A stretch of DNA of 64,000 bases from Sorangium aterium (lineage in GTDB: Bacteria > Myxococcota_A > Polyangia > Polyangiales > Polyangiaceae). Every line of letters begins with the position of its first letter. Within the stretch, counting starts at the first letter, position 1. The notes beneath the pieces were generated by a model. It saw only the letters and a program-made list of their open reading frames with translations. It was not told the origin of the DNA and ran no database searches. A program made the position numbers and the translations under genes. Location of the stretch: NCBI RefSeq assembly GCF_028368935.1, contig NZ_JAQNDK010000001.1, positions 1,178,001 to 1,242,000 of the forward strand, in the 5' to 3' direction. Below, one piece after another: positions 9,389 through 20,364 of this stretch.

Positions 9389-10165
9389 TCAGCCGCCCGG
9401 GCTGCGGAAGGCGGCGCGGCCGACGAAGAACGGGCCCATCTGGCTGATGAACTCCGAGGTCTGGCGGGTCTTCCGCATCGTCTGCACGATGTGGGAGAGC
9501 GGGTGGAGCTCCTTGCCCACGAGCCCGATCACGAACTCGTTGTCGCGGGCGTCGAGGCCGTGGCACGCGAGGCGGATGTCGTGGGCGAGGTCCTGGGCGC
9601 CATAGGCCCTGCCGATGGTGCCGTGCTCGCGCAGGATGCTCCCTTGCTCGCGCCCCTCGAGCTTGGAGAACGCGCCGCTGCGGCGGAGCGGATACCACAC
9701 GGCCCACGGCCAGGCGGGGTTCGAGACGGTCTCCGCCGGGCGCCGGAGCAGCCAGAAGTCGAGGTCCTGCTCGTAGCCGGTCGAGTACGTGCGCCCCAGC
9801 ATCGTGAAATCGGGGCGAAGCTCCAGGGCCCGGAGCTCGTTGCGGTTGAGCGCCGGGCGGACGGTCTGGACGAAGAAGGCGGGGTCCTCCGCCCATGTGA
9901 GCACAGCGATCCCGCGCGGATCGTTGATGTCCTCGTAGACGACCGCGCCGACGCGCTGGGACGAGAGCGCCTGGCCGGCTGCGCGGGTAAGCTCCGCCGG
10001 ATCGGCGTCGTCGCGGCAACGGAACACGAGCAGCTGCATGAACAGCCGGCGGTCGATGACCTGCGGCCGGCCGTCGCGCGGCGCCCCCCGCTCGGCGACG
10101 TCGATGTGCGGCAGCTCGGGCTCCGCGTGGCCGGCGGCGGGCCGGCCCGTGGTGGGTTCGCTCAT
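9389..10165 (-). CDS. chlorite dismutase / HemQ-family protein
   Basis: 258-residue protein of the chlorite-dismutase-like superfamily, closest in style to coproheme decarboxylase HemQ. Two ferredoxin-like halves are recognisable. In the C-terminal half, WYPLRRSG (Y158) matches the YPM-type motif that holds the catalytic Tyr of HemQ. It is followed by EHGTIGRAY and SHIVQTMRKTRQTSEFISQMGPFFVG, the family's end. The proximal heme ligand cannot be assigned with confidence. An N-terminal segment of about 35 polar residues is unlike the family. The start is ATG 10165; an upstream in-frame start at 10312 would add arginine-rich sequence. It converges on the mutase gene, with stop codons 14 nt apart, so it is not in that operon. 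Confidence 0.8.
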   Translation of the reverse strand: MSEPTTGRPAAGHAEPELPHIDVAERGAPRDGRPQVIDRRLFMQLLVFRCRDDADPAELTRAAGQALSSQRVGAVVYEDINDPRGIAVLTWAEDPAFFVQTVRPALNRNELRALELRPDFTMLGRTYSTGYEQDLDFWLLRRPAETVSNPAWPWAVWYPLRRSGAFSKLEGREQGSILREHGTIGRAYGAQDLAHDIRLACHGLDARDNEFVIGLVGKELHPLSHIVQTMRKTRQTSEFISQMGPFFVGRAAFRSPGG

Positions 10166-10172
10166 GGGCGTA

Positions 10173-10201
10173 GGGGTACCGAGGTTCGCGGAGGACGGCA
10201 A
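10173..10201 (-). promoter_or_regulatory. HemQ-like gene promoter giving a leaderless transcript (predicted)
   Basis: On the minus strand TTGCCG (10201-10196), 17-nt spacer, TACCCC (10178-10173), then 7 nt to ATG 10165. No Shine-Dalgarno lies between. The -35 hexamer is identical to that proposed for rlmN. Confidence 0.45.
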
Positions 10202-10656
10202 CTGCCAGGCGCAGCACCTCCGCAGGCGACGCGCAGCCCCCGCCGCGAGCGCCCGTCGCCGCTGCGAGCCCCCGTCACCGCCACGAGCGCCCGTCGACGG
10301 CCACGACGCCACGACGACGACGAGCGCGGCACGAAATCACGTAATGCGCATTACACCATTGCGTGTGTTGACGCCTGCGGCGGTCGCCTGGGGTCTGGCG
10401 TCTCGGGTCGAAAGGAGAGCTGGACAACCGGCGTGATCTTGCCCAGGGCCACGTCGGCTCGTGTCGTACGGCTGCTCCCACGTAATCATCTCTTGCCATC
10501 GAGCCCGACTCACGCTCCCCTGCGAGGTACAACCACGACTCCTGAAGTTGCCCCGACGATGTGCTCCTGGGCAGGGTTTCCCGCCCGGGGGCACGTGCGC
10601 CACGCCCGCGATCGGGCTCAGCTTCGCCAGGGCCTTCCCGCCGCAGGTTCGCCGCG
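10202..10656. other. divergent intergenic region
   Basis: About 450 nt between divergent genes with no supportable ORF. It contains the 14-bp palindrome at 10341-10354 and a second CACGTAAT half-site near 10480. Local AT content rises around 10330-10370. Otherwise nothing is recognised. Confidence 0.45.
10341..10354. promoter_or_regulatory. perfect 14-bp palindrome GTAATGCGCATTAC
   Basis: Perfect inverted repeat GTAATGCGCATTAC in an AT-richer patch between divergent genes, which is the normal look of a dimeric repressor operator. TTGACG occurs just to its right at 10369-10374. No regulator gene is adjacent, so the binding protein is unknown. Confidence 0.45.
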
Positions 10657-11262
10657 ATGAAGACGCACGAGACGAAGACCAAGACCTCGATCCCCGCCGG
10701 CAGATGCAAAGGAACGTTGCTGGTCAACCTCCGGTCGTTCGTCACGACGAACCGCGACGCCGGTGCGTGGGAGCGCCTGGTGACGTCGCTGCCCAAGTCA
10801 GACCGGGACGTACTCTATCAGCCGCTGCTGGTGAGCAGCTGGTATCCGATCGGCGTCTGGAACCGGGCCCTGCGAACGCACGTGCGGACTGCGAGCGACC
10901 AGGCCGCCGAGATCAAGCGGTTTGCCCGCTACGTCGCGGATCGCGACCTCAATACGGTGTTGAAGTTCGCGCTCTCGATCGCGATGCCGGACACGATCGT
11001 CGCCCGGACTGGAATGTTCTGGTCGCGCTACTTCGACTCCGGGAAGGTCTTCCCGCGCATGGTGAAGCCGCGGGAATGGGTGCTGACCATCACAGGCCCG
11101 ACCGGCGACGACGAGGGGCCCTCCGCGATGAACTGCGGAGAAGGTGTCTGCGGCTGGGTGGAGCAGGCGCTCCTCCTGTGCGGCGCGTCCACCCCAAAGG
11201 TAACCCACCAGCGGTGCCGGTTCCGCGGCGCGACCGAGTGCCTCTCCGAGGTCGTATGGTGA
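10657..11262 (+). CDS. DUF2378/V4R-like hypothetical protein
   Basis: 201-residue soluble protein. The N-terminal part (KGTLLVNLRSF ... LPKSDRDVLYQPLLVSSWYPIGVW) resembles the DUF2378/TIGR02265 family that is expanded in Myxococcales. The end (HQRCRFRGATECLSEVVW) has the spaced cysteines and terminal tryptophan of V4R or heme-NO-binding-like ligand domains. Cysteines also occur in CGEGVCGW and LLLCG, enough for a metal or small-molecule site, but ligands cannot be assigned. The start is ATG 10657, where compositional coding signal begins. It is 296 nt upstream of the heme-oxygenase-like gene on the same strand. The family match is a sequence-pattern judgement, not a search result. Confidence 0.65.
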   Translation: MKTHETKTKTSIPAGRCKGTLLVNLRSFVTTNRDAGAWERLVTSLPKSDRDVLYQPLLVSSWYPIGVWNRALRTHVRTASDQAAEIKRFARYVADRDLNTVLKFALSIAMPDTIVARTGMFWSRYFDSGKVFPRMVKPREWVLTITGPTGDDEGPSAMNCGEGVCGWVEQALLLCGASTPKVTHQRCRFRGATECLSEVVW

Positions 11263-11558
11263 GCGACCTGAGCGAGATCGGCCCTCTTGTCGTTGCGGCG
11301 GCGCCCGCGTTTGTCTATTGACTTGCTCCTTCCCCCTGATCCAGACTGGATGCAGGCGGGACACATGTACACGAAGCCTCTCATCGTGAGGTCGTCGTGC
11401 TGGCCCTCTCTTCTCTCGTGCTCGGGGGTCAGCATCGTGCCTGCGCCGCGGATTGTCTCCTGACGGCCGCTGGCCGGTCAGCTTGAGGTGATTCGGTGGG
11501 GTAGAGACCGGCGGGCAGCCACGAGGGAGATTGACCCAGAAACCCTCCAGGTAATTTC

Positions 11559-12305
11559 ATGCTGTCACCTCGCTCGCAGCGTCACAAGGAAGTCAAGGAC
11601 AGCCTCAAGGCGACGCCGCACCCGGTCTGGATCGACGACATGCTCGAGTCCCTGGCCGACCAGTGGAAGGCCGCGGTCTACACGCCGCCGATCGCGCGAA
11701 CGCTGACGGAGCCGATCGATCACGAGACCTGGAGCGTGCTCCTCCGGGAGTTCTTCTGTGTGGTCGAGGCGTTCCCGAAGTACATGGGGCTCAGCCTTGC
11801 CAAGACGACGTACGGCCAGTCACCGCGCGACTTCCTGGTGCGCGACTGGCTCATCGGCAACATCCGGGTCGAGGCGTTGCACGTGCGCTGGTACCTCGAC
11901 TGGGCGGCGGGGCACGGGATCAGCACCGCGGAGATCACGAGCCACCGCCCGAGCCCGGAGGTGGCGTCGCTCTTCGACTGGCTCTGGTCGATCTCCTACC
12001 GCGGCTCGCTCGCGGAGGCGGTCGGCGCCGTGAACTACGCGATCGAGGGGATCACCGGCGAGTGGTCTCGCGTGGTGCTGCCGGCCTTCACGAAGCTCTA
12101 TGGCGAGGGGAGCAAGTCGCTGACGTGGCTCGCGGCGCACGCGAACTACGATGACGCGCACCCGCGCGAGGCGCTCGAGATCGTCAAGCTCGCGACCACC
12201 TCTGGCGAGGAGATGCGCCGGGTGCAGTCGAGCATCAGCCGCTCCCTCGAGCTGTTCGAGCGCGCCTTCAAGGCCGTCAGCGTCCCGAGCCGCGGCGGCA
12301 GCTGA
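11559..12305 (+). CDS. heme-oxygenase-like diiron oxidase candidate (HDO superfamily)
   Basis: 248-residue all-helical protein with the look of the TenA/PqqC/CADD heme-oxygenase-like fold. The six ligand positions of diiron members can all be placed: E105 and H108 (VEALHVRW), E163 (AIEGITGEW), and H194, D198 and H201 in HANYDDAH. The E-x2-H and H-x3-D-x2-H spacings match those known for UndA- and CADD-type enzymes. That predicts a dioxygen-using iron enzyme rather than thiaminase. Candidate reactions in the family include fatty-acid decarboxylation, pABA synthesis and N-oxygenation; the substrate here is unknown. The start is ATG 11559. It ends 171 nt before the nested terminator at 12476. 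Confidence 0.72.
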   Translation: MLSPRSQRHKEVKDSLKATPHPVWIDDMLESLADQWKAAVYTPPIARTLTEPIDHETWSVLLREFFCVVEAFPKYMGLSLAKTTYGQSPRDFLVRDWLIGNIRVEALHVRWYLDWAAGHGISTAEITSHRPSPEVASLFDWLWSISYRGSLAEAVGAVNYAIEGITGEWSRVVLPAFTKLYGEGSKSLTWLAAHANYDDAHPREALEIVKLATTSGEEMRRVQSSISRSLELFERAFKAVSVPSRGGS

Positions 12306-13202: not shown

Positions 13203-14813
13203 TCAGGTCGCGCCGGCGGCGGCGCGCTCGAGGAGCGAGGCGAGGCGATCGAGCGGCATCGGCTCCACGAACGTGCTGCCGATGTCCCGCATCAGCACCG
13301 TCCGGACCGACGAGCCCCGGCGCTTCTTGTCGAGCGACAGGAAGCGCAGCGCGGCGGAGACCGGCTCGTCCTCGATCCGGGTGGGCAGGCCGAGCCGCGC
13401 GAGCAGGCGGGTCGCCCGGTCGGCCGCCCCGCGGTCGGTCACGCCGAGCGCGCAGCCGACGCGGAACATGGCCACCATGCCGAGCGCCACCGCCTCGCCG
13501 TGGGCCAGCCGGACGAACCCGCCCTCAGCCTCGAGGGCGTGCCCGAGCGTGTGGCCGAGGTTCAGGAGGGCGCGGTCGCCCGACTCGCGCTCGTCGCGGG
13601 AAACGATGGCCGCCTTCACGGCGATCGAGCGGCGGATGACCTCGGCGAGCACGCCGAGGTCGCGCGCGAGGAGGCGGTCGGCCTCGCGCTCGAGCAGCGT
13701 GAGCAGCTCCGGATCGCCGATGCAGGCCGACTTCACCACCTCCGCGAACCCGCTCCGGTAGGCGCGGTCGGTCTCGGTGGCGAGCGCCGCCGGGCTCGCG
13801 ACGACCGCGGACGGCTGGTGGAACGTTCCGACGGCGTTCTTCGCGGGTCCGAGGTCGACCCCGGTCTTGCCGCCGACCGAGGCGTCGACCATCGAGAGGA
13901 GCGTGGTCGGCGCCGCGACCCAGCGGACGCCCCGGAGCAGCGTGGACGCAGCGAAGCCGCCGATGTCGGTCACCACGCCCCCGCCGTGCGCGAGCACCAC
14001 CGCGCCGCGGTCGGCGCCGGCGTCGATCATCGCCGTCAGCGCCGCCTCGACGGCCGCGAGCCGCTTGTGCTCCTCGCCGGGCTTGAGCACCGTGACGGCC
14101 GCGGCCGGCGTCCCCTGCGCCGCGAGCGCGGCGAGCAGCGGCGCGCCCCAGAGGCGGCTCACGTTCTCGTCCGTGACGACGAAGACGGACGTCGGCGCCA
14201 GCGCGGCGATGGCGTCCGCCGTGGACGCCGCCCCGTCGGAGGCGATGCGCACCGCGTAGCTCTTGTCGCCGAGCGGCACGAAGAGCGGGCGATCCGCGTA
14301 GGCGCGGAGGACCCGCGCCGCGACGTCCGCGGGGGAGACGCCGTCGGTCACGACGCGCGCGTGGGCATCGGCATAGACGGGGGCGCGCGCGGCCAGGAGC
14401 TCGCGGATGCGCGCCTCGCGATCCGGCGCGCCGTCGAGGAGCGGGCGGTTGCCGTTCGGCGTGCGCGCGGCGATCGTGCGCGAGGTGGCGGTGAGCGCGA
14501 CGACGCAGCCGCGCTCGAGCGCCTCGGCGCGGAGCGCGGGATCGACGAGGGCGCCGCCGCCGAGGGCGATGATGCGCGGGCCGCGCGCCGCGAGGAGCCG
14601 GCGCAGGGTCGCCGCCTCCAGCGCGCGGAAGCCAGCCTCGCCGCGCGTGGCGAAGAGCGACGGGACGCTCTCGCCGGCCTCCTCGACGATGGCGTCGTCG
14701 AGATCGAGGAACGGGAGCCTCGTGCGCGCGGCGGCGATGCGGCCCACGGTGGACTTGCCTGCCCCCATGAAGCCGGTGAGCAGGAGCGGAGGTGCGTCGG
14801 GAGGGAATTCCAT
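13203..14813 (-). CDS. aroKB: bifunctional shikimate kinase / 3-dehydroquinate synthase
   Basis: Fusion of two shikimate-pathway enzymes in 536 residues. Shikimate kinase occupies about residues 8-175: P-loop GFMGAGKST at 14-22, LDLDD, then ALGGGAL. Dehydroquinate synthase follows from about 180 to the end: KPGEEHK, HGGGVVTDIGGFAAS, LLSMVDASVGGKTGVDL, NLGHTLGHALE (zinc-binding His region) and the C-terminal SLDKKRRG. Both halves have complete motifs. The start is ATG 14813, only 5 nt after the aroC stop, so the two are almost certainly co-transcribed. It is the last gene of the hom-murI-aroC-aroKB cluster. Confidence 0.94.
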   Translation of the reverse strand: MEFPPDAPPLLLTGFMGAGKSTVGRIAAARTRLPFLDLDDAIVEEAGESVPSLFATRGEAGFRALEAATLRRLLAARGPRIIALGGGALVDPALRAEALERGCVVALTATSRTIAARTPNGNRPLLDGAPDREARIRELLAARAPVYADAHARVVTDGVSPADVAARVLRAYADRPLFVPLGDKSYAVRIASDGAASTADAIAALAPTSVFVVTDENVSRLWGAPLLAALAAQGTPAAAVTVLKPGEEHKRLAAVEAALTAMIDAGADRGAVVLAHGGGVVTDIGGFAASTLLRGVRWVAAPTTLLSMVDASVGGKTGVDLGPAKNAVGTFHQPSAVVASPAALATETDRAYRSGFAEVVKSACIGDPELLTLLEREADRLLARDLGVLAEVIRRSIAVKAAIVSRDERESGDRALLNLGHTLGHALEAEGGFVRLAHGEAVALGMVAMFRVGCALGVTDRGAADRATRLLARLGLPTRIEDEPVSAALRFLSLDKKRRGSSVRTVLMRDIGSTFVEPMPLDRLASLLERAAAGAT

Positions 14814-14818
14814 GGCCT

Positions 14819-16003
14819 TCAGTAAGAGCGGACCTGCTGGAGGTAGCTGTCGACGTTGCGCGACAGCTCGGTGAGGCTGTCGCCGCCGAATTTCTCGAGC
14901 AGGGCGGCGGCGAGCGTGATCGCGACCATCGCCTCGCCGACGACGGAGGCGGCCGCGACGGCGCAGACGTCGCTGCGCTCGAAGGCGGCGTCGAACTGCT
15001 CCTTGGTGCGCACGTCGACGGAGGGGAGCGCGCGCTTGAGCGTCGCGATCGGCTTCATGGCGGCGCGGCAGATGAGCGGCATGCCGTTCGTGATGCCGCC
15101 CTCGAGGCCGCCGGCGCGGTTCGACGGGCGGGTGAAGGCGTGCGCCCCCTGATCGTAGGCGATGGGGTCGTGCACCTCGGAGCCCGAGATGCGCGCGGCC
15201 TCGAAGCCGATGCCGATCTCGACGCCCTTGATCGCCTGGATGCTCATCAGCGCCTGCGCGAGCCGGCCGTCGAGCTTGCGGTCCCACTGCACGTGGCTCC
15301 CGAGCCCGGGCGGCAGGCCCGTGGCGATCACCTCGAAGACGCCGCCGAGCGTGTCGCCCCGGTGCGCCGCCTCGCGGATGGCGTCGCGCATCGCCTGCGC
15401 GGCAGCGGCGTCGACGCACGCGAGATCCGAGGCGCGGGCGCGCTCCCGGAGCTCGGCGAGCGGGAGCTCCCCCCCGCCCGAGGCGGCGGAGGTCGGCGAC
15501 GACACCGGGCCGATCGACAGGACGTGGGCGAAGACCTCGACGCCGACGGACCGGAGGAGCTTGCGGCAGACGCCGCCCACCGCGACCCGCGCCGCGGTCT
15601 CGCGCGCGCTCGCCCGCTCGAGCACGTCGCGCAGGTCCCGCCGGGCGTACTTCAGGCCGCCGGCCAGATCCGCGTGGCCGGGGCGCGGGCGGGTCAGCGC
15701 CTCGGGCGGCTCGGGGAACGGCTCGGGGCCCATCCGCCCGGCCCAGCTCGCGTGATCGCGGTTCTCGATCACCATGGCGATGGGGCCGCCGAGCGTCTCG
15801 CCGCCGCGCACGCCGGCGACGAGGCGGACGCGATCGGTCTCGATCTTCATCCGCCCGCCGCGCCCGTAGCCGCGCTGCCGCCGCGCCAGATCCTCGTCGA
15901 TGTCCTCGGCAAGGAGCGGCATGCCCGCCGGAATACCCTCGACGGTCGCCACGAGCTCCGGCCCGTGCGACTCGCCGGCCGAAAGCCACCTGAGCTGCGT
16001 CAT
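14819..16003 (-). CDS. aroC: chorismate synthase
   Basis: 394-residue FMN-dependent chorismate synthase, which makes chorismate from EPSP. Signature stretches: [24 protein letters not shown] at the N-terminus, [25 protein letters not shown] (second signature) and [12 protein letters not shown]. The conserved [12 protein letters not shown] is near the C-terminus. The start is ATG 16003, supported by AGGAGG about 11 nt upstream on the minus strand. It lies 52 nt downstream of murI and 5 nt upstream of aroKB. Confidence 0.95.
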
Positions 16004-16055
16004 CGTGTGGAAAACCTCCTCTGCGCCCGGAGCCCCGAGCGAAGCTTGCTGCGTA

Positions 16056-16985
16056 TTACAGGTCGATCTGCTCCACGTCGACGCTTTGGGCGGAAAAATT
16101 GGAAGAATGGCCAGCGGCGTCCCCGCCAACCTGGGTCGGGGAGCGGACAGCATCGCCAACCTGGGTCGAGGAGCTGGCGGCGCCGTCCGCGACGACCGGC
16201 TCCCCGAGGAACCTGGCCGCCACGGTGGCGAAGCTCTTCGGTAGATCCGTGACGAGGAGCGAGAGAGCGCCCGGCGTGCTCCGGGAGGTCGCGAGCCCCC
16301 GCTCGGCGAGGAACGAGGCCACCTCCTCCGCGGTCGCCGACGCGCTGTCCACGATCGGGAGGGGGCCGCCGGCGAGCGATGCCGTCTCGGCCTCGATCGC
16401 GGCGCGGAGCAGCGGGAAGTGCGTGCACCCGAGCACGATCGAGCGGGCTCCCGCGCCGATGAGCGGCTCCAGGTACCGCCGCGCGACGAGCCGCGGGACC
16501 TCGCCCTCGACCCATCCCTCCTCCGCCAGCGAGACGAGCAGCGGGGCCGCCTGGCCGGCGACCTCGGTGCGGGTGCTGAGCGACGCCACGGCGCGGGGAT
16601 AGGCGCCGGACGCGATGGTCCCGGCCGTCCCGAGCACGCCGATCGTCGCGCCGCGCGACGCGGCGACGGCGGCGCGGGCGCCGGGCAGGATGACCCCGAG
16701 GACGGGCAGATCCAGCTCGACCCGGAGCATGTCGATCGCGACGGCGCTCACCGTGTTGCACGCGACAACGATCGCCTTGACGCCGCGGCCGATGAGCACG
16801 CGCGCGCAGCCGAGCGCGTAGCGGACCACCGTCTCCGGCGACCGCGTGCCGTACGGGACGCGCGCCGTGTCGCCCAGGTAGACGATGTCCTCGGCCGGGC
16901 AGCGCCTGCGCAGCGCGCGCACGACCGTGAGGCCGCCGAGGCCCGAGTCGAACACGCCGAGCGGCGCGTCGCCGTGGGACGTCAC
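16056..16985 (-). CDS. murI: glutamate racemase
   Basis: 309-residue glutamate racemase supplying D-glutamate for peptidoglycan. The two catalytic cysteines are C76 in VACNTVS and C187 in LGCTHFP. The N-terminus has [16 protein letters not shown]. It starts with GTG 16985, which overlaps the TGA of hom (GTGA), so translation is coupled. The last 45 or so residues are not part of the enzyme fold; they contain two STQVG/PTQVG units encoded by copies of the CCAACCTGGGTCG repeat found elsewhere in the window, which suggests that the repeat extended the reading frame. Confidence 0.94.
16114..16186 (+). repeat. two CCAACCTGGGTCG repeat copies in murI 3' end
   Basis: CCAACCTGGGTCGGGG and CCAACCTGGGTCGAGG lie about 33 nt apart inside the murI C-terminal tail (read + strand). 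The same core occurs at 39066-39080 and, in the form CCACCTGGGTCGGG, near 41026-41040. Confidence 0.5.
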
Positions 16986-18435: not shown

Positions 18436-20364
18436 ATGACGGAAAAGGGCGTTCTGGGCGACGAGTTCAGGTTCCACGTCGGCGAGGACGGGGGCGCCAC
18501 GGAACGGGGGCCGCTGCTCCCGCTGCGCGTTCTCGTCGTCGCCGATCTCACCCCGCGCGATCCACACAACGCCGGCGCGAGCCCGCCCTCGGGCGCGATC
18601 CGCGTCGACGCGGGCCGCTTCGATAACCTCTTCACGATGCTCCGGCCACGGCTCGCGATCGAGGTGCCGAGCGTGCTCGCGGCGGGCCGGGCGGTGCGCG
18701 TCGACCTCGCGCCCGCCGGGCTGAAGAGCTTCCGGCCCGACGCGCTGTGCGCCGAGGTGCCGCTGCTGCGCTCGCTGCTCGACGGCCGCCGGGTCCTGGA
18801 TCGGCTGCGCGACGGCTCGGCCACGCTCGACCAGGCGCGCGCCGAGCTCGATCGGCTCTGGGGCGGCTCCCCGCTGGTGCGCGACATCCTGGGCCTCCTC
18901 CCGGAGCGCCGGGACGCGTCGCCCGGCCGGTCCGCGTCGCCCGTCGCGGACCGGCCCGCGGCGCCGGCGCCCGCGCCCGGCTCGGACGTGGACGCGCTGC
19001 TCTCGATGGTCGACCTCGGCGGGGGCGAGGGCGCCGAGGCGGCGCCCCCACCGGCGACGCCGGGCAGCCTCGACGAGAAGCCGGCGGAGGGAGGGCGGTT
19101 CTCGGAGCTCATCGCGACCGTGGCGGCGAGCGCCCGCCCGCGCGCTGGCGGGCCCGCTCGGCCCGCGGAGGCGATCGCGCAGATCGAGCGCGCGATCGGC
19201 GCGCAGCTCGGCGCGATCCTGCAGCACCCCGAGGTGCGGCGCCTCGAGGAGGCGTGGCGCGGGCTGAGCCTGCTCGTGGAGCGCGCGAAGGGGGCGGAGG
19301 GCGTCCGGTTCGACGTCGTGAGCGCGCGGCCCGACGAGGCGGCCTCCGCGCTCGCGCGGGTGCTCGCGCAGACGGCGAGCTCCGAGCCGCCGGCGTCGGC
19401 CGCCATCGTGGACGTCGCGATCGACGGCAGCGCCGCGTCGCTCGCGCGGCTCGAGGAGATCGCGCGCGTCGCCGAGGCGCACGCGCTCCCCGCCGTGGTG
19501 AACGGCGACGCGCGCCTGCTCGGGGTCGACGATCTCGGCGGCGTCGAGCGGCTCGACAACAAGGCCGCGCTGTTCCGGGCGCCGCACCGCGCGCCGTGGC
19601 GCTCCGCTGCAGCGCGGCATGGCGCGCGGTGGGTCGCGATCGCGATGAACCGCGTGCTCGGCCGGACGCCGTACGACCGGTCGACCTCCCGGATCCGGGA
19701 AGCGGCGATCGCCGAGCAGCCCGGCGATGAGGGCGGCCGCGTCTGGATCTCGCCGGCGTACGTCGTCGGCGCGCTGATCGCGGGGAGCTTCCGCGAGACC
19801 GCGTGGCCCTGCCACGTGACGGGCGCGAAGGGCGGCGGGACGCTCGGGGACCTGCCGGTGCACGAGGTCAAGGGCGCCTACGAGGGCGAGGAGGGCGTCG
19901 CGATCCCGACCGAGGCGTTCGTGTCGACGGACACCCAGCGCGAGCTCTCGAAGAGCGGCGTGCTCCTGCTCGCGTCGGCCCCGAACAGCGACGCGGTGTA
20001 TGTCCTCGCCGCGCCGACGGCCTACGTCCCGCCGGAGAAGCTCACGTACGACAGCCCCACGGCCGAGCCGGAGGAGCGCCTCGAGCGCGTCTCGCTCGTC
20101 GATCAGCTCTTCGTCGCGCGCGTCGTCCAGTTCCTGCGCGCGCTCTGCTCGAAGCTGCCCCCGGAGAGCGACCCGGCGGAGGTCCAGCCGGTCGTCGAGG
20201 GCGCCCTCTGGGCGCTGTTCGAGAACGCGCCGCCCGCAAGCGTCGAGCTCACCGTGAAGGCCGCCCGCGTCGAGGGCGGCGCGCAGATCGCGGTCACGGT
20301 GCGCCCGCGCCGCTTCCTCGGCGTAGGGCTCGACGAGGTGTCGCTCGAGATGCCGCTCGGCTGA
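18436..20364 (+). CDS. fused TssB-TssC type VI secretion sheath protein (orphan)
   Basis: 642-residue protein joining both contractile sheath subunits. Residues 1-125 resemble TssB: LPLRVLVVADLTPRD, then RFDNLFTMLRPRLAIEVP and LKSFRPDALCAEVPLLRSLLDGR. A low-complexity Pro/Ala linker follows. Residues from about 215 to the end resemble TssC: EEAWRGLSLLVERA, NRVLGRTPYDR, AWPCHVTGAKGGGTLGDLPVHE, IPTEAFVSTDTQRELSKSGVLLL, and LVDQLFVARVVQFLRALCSKL. No other T6SS gene (TssK, TssM, ClpV, Hcp, VgrG) is within the window. The start is ATG 18436; TATGCT at 18421-18426 is a possible -10. The inferred role is a sheath-like assembly or a specialised sheath variant. Confidence 0.8.
   Translation: MTEKGVLGDEFRFHVGEDGGATERGPLLPLRVLVVADLTPRDPHNAGASPPSGAIRVDAGRFDNLFTMLRPRLAIEVPSVLAAGRAVRVDLAPAGLKSFRPDALCAEVPLLRSLLDGRRVLDRLRDGSATLDQARAELDRLWGGSPLVRDILGLLPERRDASPGRSASPVADRPAAPAPAPGSDVDALLSMVDLGGGEGAEAAPPPATPGSLDEKPAEGGRFSELIATVAASARPRAGGPARPAEAIAQIERAIGAQLGAILQHPEVRRLEEAWRGLSLLVERAKGAEGVRFDVVSARPDEAASALARVLAQTASSEPPASAAIVDVAIDGSAASLARLEEIARVAEAHALPAVVNGDARLLGVDDLGGVERLDNKAALFRAPHRAPWRSAAARHGARWVAIAMNRVLGRTPYDRSTSRIREAAIAEQPGDEGGRVWISPAYVVGALIAGSFRETAWPCHVTGAKGGGTLGDLPVHEVKGAYEGEEGVAIPTEAFVSTDTQRELSKSGVLLLASAPNSDAVYVLAAPTAYVPPEKLTYDSPTAEPEERLERVSLVDQLFVARVVQFLRALCSKLPPESDPAEVQPVVEGALWALFENAPPASVELTVKAARVEGGAQIAVTVRPRRFLGVGLDEVSLEMPLG

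Follow-up and report, generated by a model that had tools for sequence, protein, structure and literature searches.

Which reaction does a heme-oxygenase-like diiron oxidase catalyze in a myxobacterium, and is the protein encoded upstream of it a sensor that belongs to it or a gene that happens to lie there? The question is raised by a locus in the 13.47 Mb genome of Sorangium aterium. All coordinates refer to the analyzed window, a stretch of 64,000 nucleotides of this genome. The oxidase gene (11559–12305, plus strand) encodes an UndA-like protein of 248 residues followed by a stop codon, and upstream on the same strand lies a gene of the DUF2378/V4R family (10657–11262), whose product of 201 residues plus stop is a putative small-molecule sensor with a predicted H-NOX-like fold. 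Both open reading frames (ORFs) were found where the first-pass annotation of this DNA had placed them, separated by an intergenic region of 296 nt (11263–11558).

The same annotation had set the pair outside any known biosynthetic cluster, which fits the neighbors seen, namely phosphoglucomutase, a chlorite-dismutase-family protein, a response regulator and shikimate-pathway genes. The chlorite-dismutase/HemQ-family gene (9389–10312, minus strand) is divergent from the 201-residue gene, and its product scores far under the NCBIfam HemQ cut-offs. At 13203–16159, on the minus strand, chorismate synthase adjoins an ORF that combines shikimate kinase and 3-dehydroquinate synthase domains. Further along the window, a 642-residue ORF (18436–20364, plus strand) matches the T6SS protein VipA at residues 28–141 and VipB at residues 245–528, and is possibly a fused contractile-sheath protein.

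A Predicted Heme-Oxygenase-Like Diiron Oxidase

The 248-residue protein matches the Pfam family Haem_oxygenas_2 with 76.1 bits (E 3.7e-21; cut-off 28.9), and the top three matches of a PDB sequence search are the UndA-type entries 3oql, 4wwj and 6p5q (E 2.2e-37 to 2.2e-34). Chance similarity is excluded by these scores and by the dN/dS of both genes (NG86, six pairs of Sorangium orthologs), which is 0.13–0.24 for the enzyme gene and 0.05–0.17 for the upstream gene; both are under purifying selection among the Sorangium orthologs. Identity to two UndA fragments is 34–37%, with all six ligands aligned. Six diiron ligand positions had been read from the sequence in the first-pass annotation, and all are present: E105, H108, E163, H194, D198 and H201 correspond to E101, H104, E159, H194, D198 and H201 of the Pseudomonas UndA homologs, which gives the 3H/3C set by position in the alignment to UndA. 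These six residues and W190, which is numbered alike in the Pseudomonas UndA homologs, are the same in all 40 aligned homologs, and no homolog lacking E105, H108, H194 or H201 was found among them. According to one source, UndA-type enzymes use a 3H/3C ligand set and hold the substrate carboxylate on Fe1, and in UndA only a change of W190 does away with the tyrosyl radical, which probably originates at this residue (PMC13108848); this radical-forming Trp is present in the 248-residue protein. For UndA the same source gives a transient absorbance near 550 nm.

The AlphaFold2 model of the enzyme (pLDDT 90.8) has the seven-helix heme-oxygenase-like fold of this family and aligns with UndA chains at TM 0.83–0.84. 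Comparison of a model with both UndA and CADD had been proposed, and among the chains ranked by Foldseek it gave Z of about 29–30 for the former and about 26 for the latter. In VIA-align, the UndA chains reach Z 29.3–29.9 at 2.2–2.7 Å over 227–235 residues (3oql, Z 29.9, 2.2 Å, 230 residues; 4wwj, Z 29.6, 2.7 Å, 235 residues), and CADD reaches Z 26.1–26.4 at 1.8–1.9 Å over 207–209 residues (1rcw, Z 26.4, 1.9 Å, 209 residues). Judged by its sequence, the protein is a 3H/3C heme-oxygenase-like diiron oxidase with a presumptive bound metal. The original call of such an oxidase therefore holds and can be sharpened, since the nearest solved sequences are UndA and UndA homologs and CADD is remote (E 0.0014–0.0018 in the PDB sequence search). 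A second, remote relative is encoded in the same genome (L002:1189–2037; 29% identity over query residues 96–222, E 0.004).

Distribution and Kinship of the Enzyme

The enzyme gene was found in six of six Sorangium genomes, in one of them as a contig-end fragment, and in none of the 53 others of the order (59 relatives searched); the protein is 88–92% identical in the named Sorangium records. Among 377 genomes drawn evenly from across the phylum, the only match at E ≤ 1e-10 was the genome itself. The undA-like loci surveyed were the best 78 of 554 matching stretches, and these 78 include two named Myxococcaceae, not among the matches of the draw, that carry a relative with 45–46% identity. Outside Sorangium, the nearest relatives among the matches listed are actinomycetes, mostly Thermomonosporaceae, with 50–58% identity.

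In the trees, the Sorangium rows form one clade (100/99) with the actinomycete rows as its sister (92/87, and 99/96 in the second tree) and the Myxococcaceae outside, and transfer between Sorangium and actinomycetes, in either direction, would be one reading of this pattern. A separate clade holds the Pseudomonadota rows, among them the relatives of the UndA structures; there, 11 Pseudomonadota rows and two Nitrospirota rows, the latter unreliably placed on long branches, exclude the 248-residue protein (100/99). Five weaker Pseudomonadales genes (L141–L145) make up their own clade of UndA-like proteins, partly linked to TgpA, and the Sorangium protein is as close to this clade (34–41% identity) as to UndA. 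The grouping of the Sorangium/actinomycete clade relative to UndA and to the partly TgpA-linked clade is supported at 86/75. Because its relation to UndA is thus weakly placed, we name the protein UndA-like and not UndA.

The Upstream Protein as a Putative Heme-Free Sensor

The upstream product had been described as a Cys-rich, DUF2378/V4R-like protein. With six Cys in 201 residues it is Cys-rich in a mild sense. Its own sequence has no Pfam match at E ≤ 1 (DUF2378 PF09536, V4R PF02830 and HNOB included) and no NCBIfam match (TIGR02265 included), and a PDB sequence search with it gave two matches, the better at E 0.04. The DUF2378/V4R likeness stands instead through its relatives and its fold: among 19 aligned family members, six match V4R, three DUF2378 and one HNOB at E ≤ 0.1, and two match TIGR02265 at E ≤ 0.01. 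One source describes DUF2378 proteins as being without known function and records that one of them is up-regulated in two myxobacteria under HHQ, a Pseudomonas quinolone signal (PMC9257966).

The model of the 201-residue protein (pLDDT 90.6) shows a full-length H-NOX fold over residues 17–201, aligning, among the chains ranked by Foldseek, with the H-NOX structure 4u99 at Z 17.8 (2.5 Å, 169 residues). Bet3/TRAPPC3 aligns over about residues 56–201 with Z of about 12, and palmitate-bound TRAPPC3 and phenol-bound DmpR appear lower down the Foldseek list. A hallmark of H-NOX proteins is the YxSxR motif, by which seven Polyangiales H-NOX proteins were picked for a profile alignment with the 201-residue family; the alignment spans the length, and one pair reached 72% probability (E 4e-06). 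In the 201-residue protein itself His occurs only at 4, 75 and 184, with none between 76 and 183, and both YxSxR and the proximal heme histidine are absent from the sequence. A heme-binding NO sensor was rejected on these grounds. From the model, the best description of the protein is a heme-free member of the H-NOX/V4R fold group; it is probably a heme-free small-molecule sensor, and the fold suggests that the ligand would be small and hydrophobic.

Neighbors of undA in Other Bacteria

Among the best 78 of 554 stretches, genes of one cluster lie beside undA, on the same strand, in all 55 Pseudomonadota loci, and three representatives of this sensor cluster are PAS-GGDEF-EAL proteins. The sensor-cluster gene lies upstream, mostly at about 30 nt, in 40 of these loci (Pseudomonas, Aquitalea, Paraburkholderia and one Pantoea), and downstream, at 47–74 nt, in the other 15 (Rhodanobacteraceae and one Lysobacterales bin); at locus L104 it reads as two ORFs. 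The PAS-GGDEF-EAL protein of a Pseudomonas locus (L119:5466–7922) has a conserved N-terminal region without a Pfam match, and in 55 of 55 loci of the same survey (best 78 of 554) the N-terminal 240 residues match those of L119 with E ≤ 5e-11. The protein is a candidate receptor for 1-undecene or a fatty acid.

A search of 194 Pseudomonadales genomes found undA-like genes in 10 and the sensor N-terminal region in 15. Five of the 194, the query's own included, have both genes, side by side, and these five alone reach at least 61% for undA and at least 51% for the sensor; the five genomes with weaker undA-like genes and the ten with weaker sensor-like genes each do without the other gene. Such counts reflect common descent and do not stand for independent events.

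Other clades have other neighbors. In Myxococcaceae, a chemoreceptor-cluster gene lies downstream of the undA-like gene in two of two loci (one representative tested; best 78 of 554). In actinomycetes (L046–L056 and L062), a divergent flavoprotein-cluster gene was found in 12 of 13 loci of the same 78 of 554, again with one representative tested; at L054 the called ORF overlaps undA. The flavoprotein of L048 has DAO, Trp_halogenase and FAD_binding_3 matches and weak similarity to QhpG and geranylgeranyl reductase. Near some actinomycete relatives are genes for a flavoprotein, a WS/DGAT acyltransferase and an Acyltransferase-family protein (one representative each), and the flavoprotein might act on an alkene or acyl product to modify it. 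In the clade of the five weaker Pseudomonadales genes, TgpA transglutaminase genes adjoin the UndA-like genes in the two Pfam-tested loci (L142 and L143), and a GAF-GGDEF-EAL gene lies downstream at L141. For three Nitrospirota loci and Streptomyces eurocidicus, no common neighbor was seen among the best 78 of 554. A general rule that undA always lies beside a sensor gene was considered and rejected: it fails in actinomycetes, given the flavoprotein cluster at 12 of 13 loci (best 78 of 554), and partly in the L141–L145 clade, given the TgpA neighbors at L142 and L143.

The Gene Pair in Sorangium

The 201-residue protein had been suggested as a possible sensor or partner of the enzyme. The two genes are adjacent in five of five readable Sorangium loci, with gaps of 268–369 nt, and the case in which they never co-occur does not apply; in the sixth genome the pair is split over two contigs, with the 201-residue gene cut off by the end of one and the enzyme gene beginning at the first base of the other. 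Conservation of the pair across Polyangiales, to which the first-pass annotation had looked, thus extends through the readable Sorangium loci and stops there, as the enzyme was found in none of the order's other 53 genomes searched.

The 201-residue gene may also be a bystander, one of several paralogs that lies upstream by chance, a reading to which we give slightly less than an even chance. The family is multi-copy, with four matches in the same genome at E ≤ 1e-3 and at least one such match in 33 of 59 genomes (own included), and no homolog was found in the flanks (≤8 kb) of the 73 non-Sorangium loci among the best 78 of 554 (best E 0.98). Adjacency within Sorangium is weak evidence for a link, because the loci are collinear over many genes. 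The gap, 268–369 nt in the five readable loci, fits chance placement too, and the 296 nt of the window together with a conserved TTGACTT element argue against a simple two-gene operon. This element (11318–11324) is the same in five of five Sorangium sequences in an alignment read by eye and may give the enzyme gene its own promoter; a CAGACT-like hexamer follows in the intergenic region (11342–11347), conserved with changes among Sorangium in the same alignment.

Against a bystander, the ortholog is 92–97% identical across the genus and adjacent to the enzyme gene in every readable locus, whereas the chlorite-dismutase-family neighbor is 87–92% identical across Sorangium; therefore, conservation of the 201-residue gene is no lower than that of its surroundings. 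In two further clades as well, undA has a signaling gene next to it. A role as sensor or partner hence remains plausible by adjacency, although the collinear loci and the 73 other loci (among the best 78 of 554) without a homolog weigh on the other side. An empty insertion site in relatives was sought around the chlorite-dismutase-family gene, which 35 of the 39 genomes searched carry (own included); in six such regions no second window gene was collinear at E ≤ 1e-15, bar one weak kinase-type match, so that no collinearity was there to place one.

Proposed Chemistry and Its Alternatives

In the joint reading that we propose, the 248-residue protein would be an UndA-type 3H/3C decarboxylase and its neighbor a heme-free H-NOX-fold sensor tied to its substrate or product; we regard this combination as evenly balanced between true and false. 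UndA converts C10–C14 fatty acids to 1-alkenes (PMC6410514). By analogy, a medium-chain fatty acid would be bound by its carboxylate at Fe1, O2 would be activated to a peroxo-diferric state, and oxidative loss of the carboxylate would yield CO2 and a terminal alkene. The DUF2378-family sensor would regulate, or respond to, the substrate or product of the enzyme. The UndA-type part is supported because the best PDB matches, the fold, the six ligands and W190 are UndA-like, and from this kinship 1-alkene formation is likely; it is weakened because the protein lies outside the UndA clade and as near to the partly TgpA-linked clade. The sensor part draws support from adjacency, purifying selection, the H-NOX fold and the signaling gene beside undA in Pseudomonadota, and it is weakened because the actinomycete kin adjoin a flavoprotein gene and the sensor neighbor is seen in Sorangium only.

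The protein might instead be a diiron oxidase with this fold that carries out another reaction or uses another substrate, such as fatty-acyl desaturation or alkyne formation (MboA), beta-hydroxylation or amino-acid chemistry. About a dozen enzymes of the heme-oxygenase-like diiron fold have validated reactions, and their chemistry is varied (PMC13108848). The separation of the Sorangium/actinomycete clade from UndA points the same way, as do the flavoprotein, WS/DGAT acyltransferase and Acyltransferase-family genes near some actinomycete relatives. However, the nearest solved relatives by both sequence and fold are UndA and its homologs, and W190 is conserved, which leaves a different reaction with an appreciable but clearly minor share of the probability. 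A CADD-type, self-sacrificing 4-aminobenzoate synthase is very improbable and was rejected: the fold is similar (1rcw, above), chorismate-pathway genes are nearby and the NCBIfam CADD model TIGR04305 matches weakly, but its 35.9 bits fall far under the curated cut-off of 200 and do not single out the protein, since the Pseudomonas UndA homolog L119 scores alike (42.6 bits), and the sequence match to CADD is feeble beside that to UndA (E 2.2e-34 or better).

Possible Volatile Signaling and Significance

Returning to the UndA-type decarboxylase with a sensor neighbor, the genes found beside undA suggest a link between hydrocarbon making and signaling. In the boldest form of this idea, UndA would be the synthase half of volatile-hydrocarbon signaling modules, and the neighboring signaling gene would supply the receptor or output half: in Pseudomonadota the PAS-GGDEF-EAL protein with its conserved N-terminal region, in Myxococcaceae the chemoreceptor, and in Sorangium the protein with the heme-free H-NOX fold. 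We consider this form, with the Pseudomonas PAS-GGDEF-EAL protein as the 1-undecene receptor, unlikely, though the enzyme-plus-receptor idea is testable. Biofilm maturation in Pseudomonas fluorescens MFE01 is impaired when undA is lost and recovers with volatiles from the wild type; the accessible part of the report supposes dedicated 1-undecene receptors and names none (PMC10614000). If the idea were true, the PAS-GGDEF-EAL protein of Pseudomonas would be the missing receptor behind this effect. In the literature searched, which excludes most subscription papers, no paper was found that joins undA and undecene with GGDEF or diguanylate cyclase, Sorangium with both volatiles and undecene, or, among the papers listed, UndA with Actinomadura, and nothing relevant linking V4R with H-NOX or fatty acid was found.

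The neighbor survey yields candidates for how bacteria perceive 1-undecene, and the Sorangium/actinomycete branch near UndA would be a tractable source of another 1-alkene-forming enzyme or fatty-acid oxidase. By sequence, the 248-residue protein is a real, well-conserved new relative within a known enzyme family, with a putative function.

Comparison With Known Systems

The 201-residue protein resembles the H-NOX domains (4u99 and 3tf8) and the V4R/Bet3 fold group, which align to its model residues 17–201 with Z up to 17.8, and differs from H-NOX domains in lacking His between 76 and 183, the YxSxR motif and a Pfam HNOB match. It is akin to the myxobacterial DUF2378/TIGR02265 family through relatives that match PF09536 (3 of 19) and TIGR02265 (2 of 19), although it matches neither model itself. 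CADD (1rcw and 8va9) shares the heme-oxygenase-like dimetal fold of the enzyme (Z of about 26), but with 16% identity in the structural alignment and with the NCBIfam CADD cut-off missed by the Sorangium protein. The UndA-like proteins of Thermomonosporaceae, other actinomycetes and Streptomyces eurocidicus are closer, being its sister clade (92/87, 99/96) at 50–58% identity among the matches listed, but their loci have the divergent flavoprotein gene (12 of 13), and a DUF2378/V4R neighbor was not found there among the best 78 of 554. The UndA proteins of Pseudomonas (4wwj, 4wx0 and the lauric-acid-bound 6p5q, with 3oql as the P. syringae homolog) have the predicted fold, the six ligands and W190 in common with the 248-residue protein. 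They differ from it in sequence (34–37% identity for two of them), in forming a separate clade and in their neighbor, which is a PAS-GGDEF-EAL gene in Pseudomonas and a DUF2378/V4R gene in Sorangium.
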